Shown here in pieces: positions 59,066 through 64,000 of a DNA stretch of 64,000 bases. A program made the position numbers and the translations under genes. How positions within the stretch are numbered: position 1 is the stretch's first letter; each line of letters starts with the position of its first letter. Location: assembly GCF_007860095.1 (NCBI RefSeq), contig NZ_SJPT01000004.1, positions 221,260 to 285,259 of the forward strand, read 5' to 3'. This stretch comes from Novipirellula galeiformis (GTDB lineage: Bacteria > Planctomycetota > Planctomycetia > Pirellulales > Pirellulaceae). Under the pieces are notes generated by a model. That model did no database searches, was not told the DNA's origin, and was given only the letters and a program-made list of their open reading frames with translations.

Positions 59066-61207
59066 CTAACTCGTCTGGAGTGTTCGCTGCGGCTCACACA
59101 CAACGGGAAAGAGCACCACGAATTCGGTCCCCTGTCCCACGGCCGAACGCAGGTCGATCGCACCACCGTGTTGCTCGACGATCCCCAACACGGTTGCCAA
59201 CCCCACGCCTTGCCCCGTCGACTTGGTGGTAAAGAAGGGGTCGAAAACGCATCGTAACGTCTCTTGGTCGATGCCGCTGCCATCGTCTTTGACCGAAACG
59301 TAAATATGCTCGCCCGGTCGAATTTTCCCGCTAAAGACAAATCCCTCAATCTCCGCTTGCTCAACGCGTCGCATCGCCACGTTGATCTGGACCGTCCCGG
59401 CTTCACCAATCGCTTCGACAGCATTGGTCAGTAAATTCAGCAGCACTTGCGACAACGCGGTGGAATCTCCAACGACAGGTGGAGTGCCAGGATCGGCACA
59501 AAGCTCGATCTTGATTTTTGCTTTGGTCGCCGACCGCACTAGGCTGGCTACTTTTTTCGCCTCCGCAACAAGGTCCACTTGTTGAGTCTGAGATTTTGAC
59601 TGACCAGCAAAGGTCAACATTTGCTTACACATGGACGAGGCCATCTCTGCGGCGTGCATGATTTGATCGAGGCTCTCCTGAGTGTTCGCTGCCCCCATGC
59701 CGCTATTGAACTGACACAGTTCGGCGTTCGTTCGGATCACGGACAACAGATTATTAAAATCGTGGGCAATGCCGCCCGCTAATTTCCCCAGACTCTCAAA
59801 CTTCTGCTGATTCTGCATTTGCACCGCGCGTCGCCGCGAACGCTCTTTCTGCTTCATCCGCTCCATGACAAGCGCCAACGAGCGTGCCACACGCTCGAGT
59901 CCGATCAGATCCTCCGGTGGGCTCCAAAACGGCGTATTTGATGTCAGACAGATCGTTCCCAGTGTCGTACTAGTGCTATCGACGATTGGCATCGATCCGG
60001 TCGCCTGGATGCCAAGCGGAGTATAGAACGCTTCGGCCGATGGGAATCCTTCGCCCGCCGATAGATCTTGCACAAATTGAAAGACCCCCGATTTCATCGC
60101 GTTGCAACAAGCCGTGGGCTCGGCCATGACCGGGAACCCGATCAACGATTGCAACACATCCTTCGGCATCGAGGGAGCTGCGGCGAAGCCAACCGATTGC
60201 CGGGCATCGTCAAGCAACAGCACGATGGTGCGAAGTTCGGGAAAGGCAAGGTCAACTTTGCTGGCGACTAAGCTCAGCAACGCTTTCAACGAAGTTCCCT
60301 CGGAAGCCAGCTTGAAAATCTCGCGTTCAAGATCCATCAACTCCAATTGCTGTCGCTCGACCGTGACATCGCGAACCGTCCCTACGGCGCGAAGTTGCTC
60401 TCCCGAGTCGTTCCACTCACAAACGGCACCTTCGAGGTGTATCCAGCGATAACCGCCCGTCTTCTGCTGAATGCGGAATTGAAAATCGAGGACGTTGGGA
60501 ATGGAGGGCATCTCGGCAACCCGACGCTGGTCGTCGGGGTGCATCAACGCTTGAACCGACTCCGCCGAACAATCAATCTCATCTTCGCCATACCCCAAAA
60601 TGCGGTGATACTCGGTATCTCGAGTGACTTGGTTTTTCTGCACATCCCAGTCCCACACCCCAAACTGACTGCCCTTCAATGCAAGTGCATATCGGGTTCG
60701 CACTGCGGCAAGTGATTGGCGATCGTTGTACCAGTCGGTGATATCCGTGAACGAATTGATCGTATAGATTTTCTCGCCGTGCTGGACGACACGGAAATCC
60801 GCGCGCACATAAATCCAGTTCCCTTTGAGCGTTGACAAGCCAACGTCCGAAGCATGGACGGGATCCTGATCTAGCAACGATTGCAGAAAGCCAACCAGGG
60901 ACGGCAGCGATTCAGGCAGCAAAATCTCGCTCGTTCGCGATCTTAACTCCACCATCGAATTGGCCTCGAACAAAGCAATCGCGCTTTGGTTAAAACCAAT
61001 GGTATGAATGCCCGCGAGCAGCGTTTTCAATAATTCCGCATCGTCTTTGATTGCGTCAGCGAGCGACGTGACTCCCGAATCGCGAAGCACTCGCAATTGA
61101 GCGGTCACCTCGGTTACGTCGTCAATGGTCACCGCCGCTTTGATTGACTCAAGCAAAAACGAAGTGGGGTCATCAATCGAAGACAAGAATTCAAGGGCAT
61201 GGGTCAT
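59066..61207 (-). CDS. PAS-PAS-GAF sensor histidine kinase (NtrB-type)
   Basis: Two PAS-type domains (about 60-160 and 170-285; the second with LMHPDDQRRV and a PAC block) precede a GAF-like domain at about 300-450. The phosphoacceptor His482 is in GGIAHDFNNLLSVI, typical of the NtrB/HPK4 group. The HATPase_c has VLLNLLTNAVEAIGEAG, DDGSGID and the FFTTKSTGQGVGL box. No transmembrane segment is present. No receiver domain or response regulator is adjacent, so the partner is elsewhere. The ATG at 61207 gives 713 residues. Confidence 0.94.
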   Translation of the reverse strand: MTHALEFLSSIDDPTSFLLESIKAAVTIDDVTEVTAQLRVLRDSGVTSLADAIKDDAELLKTLLAGIHTIGFNQSAIALFEANSMVELRSRTSEILLPESLPSLVGFLQSLLDQDPVHASDVGLSTLKGNWIYVRADFRVVQHGEKIYTINSFTDITDWYNDRQSLAAVRTRYALALKGSQFGVWDWDVQKNQVTRDTEYHRILGYGEDEIDCSAESVQALMHPDDQRRVAEMPSIPNVLDFQFRIQQKTGGYRWIHLEGAVCEWNDSGEQLRAVGTVRDVTVERQQLELMDLEREIFKLASEGTSLKALLSLVASKVDLAFPELRTIVLLLDDARQSVGFAAAPSMPKDVLQSLIGFPVMAEPTACCNAMKSGVFQFVQDLSAGEGFPSAEAFYTPLGIQATGSMPIVDSTSTTLGTICLTSNTPFWSPPEDLIGLERVARSLALVMERMKQKERSRRRAVQMQNQQKFESLGKLAGGIAHDFNNLLSVIRTNAELCQFNSGMGAANTQESLDQIMHAAEMASSMCKQMLTFAGQSKSQTQQVDLVAEAKKVASLVRSATKAKIKIELCADPGTPPVVGDSTALSQVLLNLLTNAVEAIGEAGTVQINVAMRRVEQAEIEGFVFSGKIRPGEHIYVSVKDDGSGIDQETLRCVFDPFFTTKSTGQGVGLATVLGIVEQHGGAIDLRSAVGQGTEFVVLFPVVCEPQRTLQTS

Positions 61208-61596: not shown

Positions 61597-62694
61597 TTAG
61601 GCAGCCCGTTTGCCTGGGTTCGCCGCACGATTTCGCGATTCAATCCGCTGGCGAACCATCGCATGGGGCCCCGTCTCGGTCGTCGTTGAATCGAGATACC
61701 AACGCCGCGTTTTGATCGACTCAAGAATCTGATCGGCAACCCCCACGACGCGTGCTCCAGCTTGGCCATCGACGGCCGGCTCGACTCCCGTTTGGATGCT
61801 GATCACAAAGTCGTGAAGTTCGTCGAGAATGGCATTTCGTGGCTCAAGCTCTTTCGTGACGCATTTCAACGATTCACTGAAAATTTGGTCCGCACACCCC
61901 AATGGGTTCTCTACCTCGCTGTCGAGATCAAAACGACGCTGGACAACCGCTTCGCTTGGGCAAACGGAGGTTAACGAGGGTTTTCCGAAATCAATGTCCG
62001 CAAACCCGTTGGCGCCAAAGATCTGCATCTGCCGCGCCGGGGTGGGACTGAGACGAGATGCCTTGAGATTGGCAATCAGTCCGCATTCAAATTCAATCCG
62101 CGTCTCGGCAATGTCTTCGTGACTACTAATCACCGACATGCCGCTCGCCGAAATCGAGCGAATCGGCGAGTGGGTGAGCGACAACACCAAATCCAAGTCG
62201 TGAATCATCAAATCCATCACGACGCCAACATCGAGACAGCGTCCTGGGAAGTGGGAGGCGCGAACCGCTTCGATGTACTTAGCGTCGACGGCCAAGTCAC
62301 CGAGTGCAGCGAAGGCAGGGTTAAAGCGTTCGACATGCCCGACCTGCAGAGTCAGATGGCGGCTTTTGGCCAGATTCGCGAGCCGTTGTGCATCGGGACC
62401 ATTGGCAGCCAAGGGTTTTTCAACAAAAGCATGCTTCCCTGCGGTAAGCAGTTCGGTTGCGATTTCCCCGTGCAAATCGGTCGGCGCGGCCACGATAGCA
62501 GCGTCGATCGTGCCAATGCATTGCCGATAGTCCGCAAAGGTCGGCACGCCGAACATTGCCTTTGCATTGACCCGCGCTTGCTCAAACGGATCGGTGACGG
62601 CCACCAACTCGACTCCGTCGACTTGTTGCAACAATTTTGCGTGGATGCGTCCGAGATGACCTGCACCGATGACTGCGATTCGTAACCGACTCAC
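61597..62694 (-). CDS. Gfo/Idh/MocA-family oxidoreductase next to lpxA (GnnA-like candidate)
   Basis: The N-terminal Rossmann fold has RIAVIGAGHLGRIHAKLL, and EKPLA is the family's conserved Lys-Pro region. It dehydrogenates a sugar or sugar nucleotide with NAD(P). Its start codon overlaps the lpxA stop by four bases, so the two are translationally coupled. In some bacteria a Gfo/Idh enzyme beside lpxA (GnnA) oxidises UDP-GlcNAc toward UDP-GlcNAc3N for amide-linked lipid A. That link is inference here because no GnnB-like aminotransferase is visible. It is soluble and cytoplasmic. Confidence 0.88.
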   Translation of the reverse strand: MSRLRIAVIGAGHLGRIHAKLLQQVDGVELVAVTDPFEQARVNAKAMFGVPTFADYRQCIGTIDAAIVAAPTDLHGEIATELLTAGKHAFVEKPLAANGPDAQRLANLAKSRHLTLQVGHVERFNPAFAALGDLAVDAKYIEAVRASHFPGRCLDVGVVMDLMIHDLDLVLSLTHSPIRSISASGMSVISSHEDIAETRIEFECGLIANLKASRLSPTPARQMQIFGANGFADIDFGKPSLTSVCPSEAVVQRRFDLDSEVENPLGCADQIFSESLKCVTKELEPRNAILDELHDFVISIQTGVEPAVDGQAGARVVGVADQILESIKTRRWYLDSTTTETGPHAMVRQRIESRNRAANPGKRAA

Positions 62695-63500
62695 GCTGCT
62701 TTTCTCCTTCGGTCGCGACCACGGCCCTTTTGGCCGCTGACCGTTGTATCCATGAAATTGAACAGCTCTCGTAGCACGGGGCGAATGGGCCCTGTCGATA
62801 ACAACTGCTCCTTGGCTGCATCGAGTCCCACGTAGGACCGATAAATAAGTTTATATGCCTTGGTAAGGACTTCGATGTCCTCTTTTGGAAATCCGTGTCG
62901 CTTCAATCCGATCGTGTTGACGGCGCGAGGTTTGGCGGGCTGACCGTCCACGATGATGTAGGGGGGGACGTCATGAAGTACCCGCGCCATCGCGCTGATG
63001 AAGCTAAGATTTCCAACGGATGCGAAGTGCACGATCCCCACACCTCCGGCAATCGTGATGTCATTCCCGATGTGGGCGTGGCCACCGATCATCACATTGT
63101 TGGCCATCACATTGCGGTCCCCGACCTTGCAATCGTGAGCGATGTGAGTGTGTGCCATCAGATAATTATTGTGACCGACCCGCGTGACGCCATCTTCTTT
63201 CTCGGTGGCGCGGTTGACGGTGCAGTACTCGCGGAACACGTTGCCGTCACCGATCTGAACCTCCGTCGGCGTGCCCTTGTAGCTGGTGTCTTGCGGTTCC
63301 GCACCGATCACACAGCCTGGGAACAAATGGTTCTCTTCACCGAGTGAGGTCACCCCCGACAGCACGACATGGTCTTCGAGCAGTGTATCATCACCAATGC
63401 TGACATCCGGACCGATCACACAAAAGTGCCCGATACGTACGTTCGTCCCTAACTTGGCACGTGGATCAACCACCGCGGTCTGAGCAATCTGGGTACTCAT
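62691..63500 (-). CDS. lpxA: Acyl-ACP:UDP-N-acetylglucosamine O-acyltransferase-like protein
   Basis: LpxA catalyses the first lipid A step. The left-handed beta-helix hexapeptide repeats are visible, and the catalytic His122 is in HIAHDCKVGD. The helical tail starts near NTIGLKRHGF. The ATG at 63500 has GGAG at nine bases upstream, which is better than the upstream start at 63536. By eye, the helix position of E. coli His144 holds a valine in this protein. It acts in the cytoplasm and is trimeric in the family. It overlaps the oxidoreductase by four bases. Confidence 0.93.
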   Translation of the reverse strand: MSTQIAQTAVVDPRAKLGTNVRIGHFCVIGPDVSIGDDTLLEDHVVLSGVTSLGEENHLFPGCVIGAEPQDTSYKGTPTEVQIGDGNVFREYCTVNRATEKEDGVTRVGHNNYLMAHTHIAHDCKVGDRNVMANNVMIGGHAHIGNDITIAGGVGIVHFASVGNLSFISAMARVLHDVPPYIIVDGQPAKPRAVNTIGLKRHGFPKEDIEVLTKAYKLIYRSYVGLDAAKEQLLSTGPIRPVLRELFNFMDTTVSGQKGRGRDRRRKAA

Positions 63501-63563: not shown

Positions 63564-64000
63564 CTAAGCAGCTTTGTGATGCGATTGCGTCATTTGGGTT
63601 AGGGGAATCTGCGAAGCCGCCAGTTCAGCGAGTTGCTGAGCCATCCGGCCGTTTAGGTTGTGTCCACCGCGATAGGAAACAAAGGTGCCGACGAGTTCAA
63701 CGTTGGCCAGGGCAAGGTCACCGATCAAATCGAGGACCTTGTGCCGTGCACACTCATCAGCAAAACGCAATGAATTCTCAATCGGGCCGTGATCGCCGAT
63801 CACTAACAAGTCTTGGTTCGTGACGTGAGACGCAACCCCTTGTTCACGAAGCAGGCCGGCCTGCGACTCGGTAACAAAGGTTCGAGCTGGAGCAACGTCG
63901 CGAATAAAACGATGAGGGGACATCCGCAGAGCGTAGGCTTGGTCAAGGATCGGCGAAGGCCCATCGAAACTCAAGCGATACTCATACGAAGTGTGTCCAT
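63564..64000 (-). CDS. lpxC: UDP-3-O-acyl-N-acetylglucosamine deacetylase, C-terminal part (5' end outside window)
   Basis: The visible frame begins GHTSYEYRLSF at the window edge and has LRFADECARHKVLDLIGDLA, which holds two of the zinc ligands (His and Asp of HKVLD), and GGHNLN with the catalytic-type histidine. LpxC is the committed lipid A step. The 3' end at 63564 shows no FabZ fusion, although LpxC-FabZ fusions occur in related phyla. lpxA starts 63 bases downstream on the same strand. Only the C-terminal half is in view. Confidence 0.93.
   Translation of the reverse strand, partial: GHTSYEYRLSFDGPSPILDQAYALRMSPHRFIRDVAPARTFVTESQAGLLREQGVASHVTNQDLLVIGDHGPIENSLRFADECARHKVLDLIGDLALANVELVGTFVSYRGGHNLNGRMAQQLAELAASQIPLTQMTQSHHKAA

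Follow-up and report, generated by a model that had tools for sequence, protein, structure and literature searches.

A GnnA-type gene overlapping lpxA and a distant GnnB candidate point to probable 3-amino lipid A in a planctomycete

The window, i.e. the whole stretch of 64,000 nucleotides of planctomycete DNA that was analyzed, carries a Gfo/Idh/MocA oxidoreductase gene that belongs to the GnnA clade, has intact active-site motifs and occupies an operon-like position behind lpxC and lpxA. A conserved DegT aminotransferase of the GnnB/WbpE type is encoded elsewhere in the same genome. We consider it probable that the two enzymes constitute a split GnnA/GnnB pathway that produces UDP-GlcNAc3N, and that the lipid A of this bacterium carries amide-linked 3-acyl chains. 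A split pathway is proposed because of the distant DegT gene, its orthologs across Pirellulales, its co-occurrence with gnnA, its adjacency to lptD in other genomes, and the precedent of Mesorhizobium.

Table 1. Features of the lpxC-lpxA-gnnA locus (window positions)
Feature	Position	Strand	Remark
gnnA-type gene (Gfo/Idh/MocA oxidoreductase, 365 aa, GTG start)	61597..62694	minus	predicted UDP-GlcNAc 3-dehydrogenase
Overlap GTGA, 4 bases (gnnA start GTG within lpxA stop TGA)	62691..62694	minus	sequence
lpxA, UDP-GlcNAc (or UDP-GlcNAc3N) acyltransferase, 269 aa, ATG at 63500	62691..63500	minus	
lpxC, 3' part only in window	63564..64000	minus	Pfam LpxC 117.8 bits

The window genome has a size of 7.4 Mb, and its closest relatives are Pirellulaceae (Rhodopirellula/Rubripirellula/Stieleria-like). 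The genes lpxC, lpxA and the Gfo/Idh/MocA gene follow one another in this order on the minus strand (Table 1). The first-pass annotation had located the oxidoreductase gene beside lpxA, with correct coordinates and strand, and had described a four-base overlap with the lpxA stop codon. The overlap is real, but ATGA should be GTGA: positions 62691-62694 read TCAC on the plus strand, and hence the gnnA-type gene starts with GTG. The complete lpxC (L008:9824-10828) extends past the window edge, and an ompH/skp-like gene lies upstream of it. LpxA was identified by NCBIfam models PRK05289 (319.8 bits, with a cut-off of 226) and TIGR01852 (286 bits), and the oxidoreductase frame by Pfam PF01408 (E 4.4e-25), with PF22725 also matched. 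An unrelated PAS-type histidine kinase gene (59066-61207) is found 389 bases downstream of the gnnA-type gene, and lpxB is at C5:165029. The gnnA-type gene is probably co-transcribed with lpxC and lpxA, and its overlap with lpxA suggests translational coupling, which would match the levels of the enzymes.

The best PDB sequence match of the window enzyme was 7bvj (150 bits; the runner-up had 76), whose title in the fold search is UDP-N-acetylglucosamine 3-dehydrogenase GnnA of A. ferrooxidans. The predicted structure of the window enzyme had a mean pLDDT of 88, with residues 1-340 folded and a low-confidence tail at residues 341-365. When this model was used in the fold search, 7bvj was again the top match (Z 39.5 over 301 residues, with 33% identity); the next non-GnnA structure reached Z 35.9, i.e. 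3.6 Z below it, and the WlbA structures gave Z values of 34.9 and 33.0. The best NCBIfam model was NF040723, for an archaeal UDP-GlcNAc 3-dehydrogenase, yet the score of 171.8 bits lay far below its cut-off of 450.

In a tree of 80 sequences with SH-aLRT support, the GnnA clade received 99% and sat on a long stem (0.8). It contained 7bvj, the gnnA genes found beside a DegT aminotransferase gene in loci L065 and L076, and planctomycete genes including that of the window. Outside it fell the WbpB/WlbA-like cassette enzymes of Pirellulales and 21 paralogs from the window genome. WbpB-like enzymes encoded beside a WbpE-like DegT formed a separate clade (support 100), and the window enzyme was not among them. 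All residues invariant across a 20-sequence alignment of the GnnA clade are present in the window enzyme, including G10, G12, H18, E92, K93, P94, H165 and D166, and the GxGHLG nucleotide-binding and EKP / H catalytic motifs of the Gfo/Idh/MocA fold were found. H18, R214 and the MDLMIHD motif are among the residues that separate the GnnA clade from the WbpB-like enzymes. The GnnA-family reading of the first-pass annotation is thus borne out, and a grouping with non-GnnA dehydrogenases is contradicted, since sequence, tree and fold all place the window enzyme with GnnA rather than among other dehydrogenases. Its assignment as a GnnA-type enzyme is well supported.

The Gfo/Idh/MocA family is very large, and 22 further members match in the window genome. 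It could therefore be argued that the gene encodes an ordinary sugar dehydrogenase and is next to lpxA only by coincidence. We find this most improbable: the enzyme groups specifically with A. ferrooxidans GnnA, all of its own paralogs are distant (the nearest gives 45 bits, and the genome has no second gene of the GnnA type), and its position is conserved over the phylum. Tree and synteny together already contradict an accident. A four-base overlap of lpxA and gnnA is possible in 52 of the 83 adjoining lpxA-gnnA pairs examined, and the order lpxC-lpxA-gnnA is kept in nearly all Pirellulales loci fetched; hence the arrangement is not due to chance.

Nearly all of 60 relatives searched had best matches of about 150-690 bits, vs 93 or less for other Gfo/Idh genes; in one relative the ortholog was split into two stretches, and no gnnA ortholog was found in two of the 60 (G007 and G035). 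Four genomes (G019, G020, G021 and G060) have lpxA relocated, with lpxC and gnnA still together. In these four the best LpxA match is 34-42% identical to the window LpxA, possibly a replacement. The order bamA-ompH-lpxC-lpxA-gnnA was observed in another family, and elsewhere an lpxI-gnnA-lpxB order and also a gnnA-lpxB fusion. The fusion (L057:3585-5648) is a single open frame of ~690 aa in an lpxC-lpxA-lpxI-(gnnA-lpxB) cluster of candidate-phylum bacteria; L057 alone was covered by the domain search. Long GnnA frames are also present in L058, L069 and L073.

A GnnB-type DegT gene was found neither among the lpx genes nor in the upstream 8 kb. A GnnB/WbpE-type DegT of 387 aa is encoded on the minus strand at G000:C4:355682-356842, 72 kb from the gnnA-type gene. 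The first-pass remark that GnnB is missing is true of the stretch that was read and false for the genome, and of the options offered there, a split version is the better one, given that such an aminotransferase exists elsewhere. In total, three full-scoring DegT-family sugar aminotransferases and one weaker one are encoded in the window genome.

The GnnA-type enzyme might instead deliver its 3-keto product to another aminotransferase, or the same DegT might serve a surface polysaccharide, with lipid A being ester-linked at position 3 in either case. We regard this as unlikely, though less so than the other alternatives. As regards another aminotransferase, the window genome does have a LegC-like (L002) and a WecE/FdtB-type (L003) sugar aminotransferase; these remaining DegTs, however, match LegC-like and 4-aminotransferase models. 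Both were rejected as GnnB on the basis of these NCBIfam matches. The DegT encoded 8 kb upstream (L008:18248-19333) was also rejected, as a distant member with 28% identity to the DegTs encoded beside gnnA. This divergent gene lies near yajC, secDF and a surE-like gene.

The 387-aa DegT shares 41% identity with the gnnA-adjacent DegT of L076 and 39% with that of L065, and WbpE is among its nearest solved relatives. Orthologs were detected in nearly all of the 60 relatives, with scores above 410 bits everywhere but in a single genome, of 78% completeness. It falls within a mostly planctomycete clade of 30 rows (97% SH-aLRT; 81/85 in a bootstrapped tree), which excludes WbpE, DesV and the DegTs of the WbpE-like cassettes. 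This clade, the gnnA-adjacent DegTs and the WbpE lineage fall together in one half of the tree, a grouping with 98/95 support but with no supported order among the three; a topology uniting the planctomycete clade with the gnnA-adjacent DegTs was the better one found and was not rejected (AU p 0.77).

In all seven genomes examined, which represent two planctomycete families (L218, L224-L228 and L243), a member of this DegT clade immediately precedes lptD, the gene for the outer-membrane LPS exporter. In an eighth genome an LptD-like fragment beside the DegT gene was recognized with a profile built from other LptDs, with no match in Pfam. In L218, the DegT-lptD pair is followed by CTP-transferase-like, YmdB-like and exonuclease VII genes. 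Other members of the clade are found in surface-polysaccharide clusters (L229, L231 and L239), so that the substrate of the enzyme cannot be deduced from clade membership. A role of the same DegT in a surface polysaccharide could be drawn from these relatives, which in some Planctomycetota sit among glycosyltransferase and acetyltransferase genes. Against such a role, gnnA overlaps lpxA and has kept its place next to lpxC in genomes with a relocated lpxA, in other families the DegT gene is associated with lptD, and relatives have separate WbpB/WbpE-like cassettes for that purpose. Cassettes of this type, which pair a Gfo/Idh with a DegT gene and are separate from gnnA, were seen in several Pirellulales (L204-L212).

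A co-occurrence table for 292 Planctomycetota genomes was compiled by hand from the lists of gnnA and DegT matches. We found gnnA in 240 genomes and a GnnB/WbpE-type DegT in 262: both were present in 229, gnnA only in 11, DegT only in 33, and neither in 19. The DegT was thus present in 229 of the 240 gnnA-bearing genomes (95%) vs 33 of the 52 without gnnA (odds ratio 12, Fisher p 3e-9, with shared ancestry uncorrected). Likewise, a strong match to the L076 DegT was obtained in 26 of 27 genomes that had supplied gnnA loci, most of them belonging to other phyla or to different planctomycete lineages, with best matches 39-52% identical, the L076 gene itself apart.

The exceptions raise the question of whether the enzyme acts without GnnB and makes a 3-keto or C3-epimerised UDP-sugar or lipid A intermediate, in a GnnA-clade function not yet described. 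Most gnnA genes seen, which come from several phyla and lie in lipid A operons of Planctomycetota, Omnitrophota and others, have no adjacent aminotransferase gene, and a GnnB/WbpE-type DegT was not found at the threshold used in 11 of the 240 gnnA-bearing Planctomycetota, seven of which belong to one nearly complete family. Genomes of this kind include G168, G299, G329 and G317, as well as G088, G118, G233, G325 and G366; when the first four were examined further, only other kinds of DegT were found. That the window enzyme works without GnnB appears quite improbable, because its active-site residues are the same as those of characterised GnnA and such a DegT accompanies gnnA in the large majority of genomes, both in the phylum and among the 27 others. 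We give equally little credence to the narrower proposal that part of the GnnA clade, e.g. in the family lacking the DegT, acts without GnnB and a 3-keto or otherwise altered sugar enters lipid A. Weighing the tree and the lptD linkage against the clade members in polysaccharide clusters and the gnnA genomes devoid of such a DegT, we conclude that the 387-aa DegT is likely, as judged from sequence comparisons, to be the GnnB partner of the window enzyme.

In the split GnnA/GnnB pathway that we favor, the window enzyme would oxidize the 3-OH of UDP-GlcNAc in an NAD-dependent reaction, and the DegT encoded 72 kb away, as a PLP aminotransferase of the GnnB type, would convert the resulting 3-keto sugar into UDP-GlcNAc3N. 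The neighboring LpxA would then N-acylate this sugar, and LpxC and the rest of the pathway would process the product, leading to lipid A with amide-linked 3-hydroxyacyl chains at positions 3 and/or 3'. In the window LpxA, the catalytic His122/His125 and His144 (E. coli numbering) are kept. Its active site differs from that of E. coli LpxA at Asn99 and Ile200; both are common to nearly all LpxA proteins of gnnA-bearing loci and may be merely phylogenetic. From these genomic data we infer the DegT as partner, the use of the amino sugar by LpxA, and the final lipid A structure.

It was argued for many years that planctomycetes have no normal outer membrane. Evidence for LPS export has come from genomes, all of the planctomycete genomes searched having LptD (PMC3422733), and beta-hydroxy fatty acids in planctomycete lipid A were reported in 1988, according to a title cited in PMC4334474. 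In the open-licence literature we found no report of gnnA or 3-amino lipid A in Planctomycetes, and no lipid A structure from the phylum. Our results indicate that the lipid A of the window planctomycete, and probably that of most of the phylum, may be made from a sugar bearing one additional amino group; the presence of gnnA-type genes in 240 of the 292 Planctomycetota predicts amide-linked 3-acyl chains as the rule there. The main interest lies in this prediction of lipid A chemistry for a phylum where no published structure was found, and it can be tested directly in cultured strains. If the prediction holds, 3-amino lipid A would seem to be commoner than the known examples indicate; amide linkage would presumably make the chains stable to high pH and to ester cleavage, and fatty acid analyses restricted to ester-linked chains would overlook them.

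GnnA, GnnB and 3-amino lipid A are established in A. ferrooxidans, Leptospira and Campylobacter. In A. ferrooxidans, gnnA and gnnB are reportedly found together with lpxA, whereas the gnnB candidate of the window genome lies outside the lpx cluster. WbpB/WlbA and WbpE are a UDP-GlcNAcA 3-dehydrogenase and its aminotransferase. They belong to the same two superfamilies and share the C3 chemistry; unlike the window gene, however, WbpB/WlbA lie outside the GnnA clade, and in Pirellulales they occur as separate Gfo/Idh-DegT cassettes. The structures of A. ferrooxidans GnnA, 7bvj and 7bvk, are credited to Manissorn et al. 2020, as cited in PMC9132286. The window enzyme resembles that protein in fold, sequence group, EKP and MDLMIHDLD motifs and clade-invariant Arg/His positions, and differs from it in sequence (33% identity) and in its longer C-terminal tail. 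Dispersed gnnA and gnnB genes are known from Mesorhizobium loti (PMC5644692). Capnocytophaga canimorsus has genes identified as gnnA and gnnB from its genome, both outside the lpxA-lpxC-lpxD operon, and its lipid A contains GlcN3N (PMC3342949). The window genome is like M. loti in that gnnA and the gnnB candidate are separated, but unlike both of these bacteria, in which gnnA is away from lpxA, its gnnA overlaps lpxA and only the gnnB candidate is located elsewhere.
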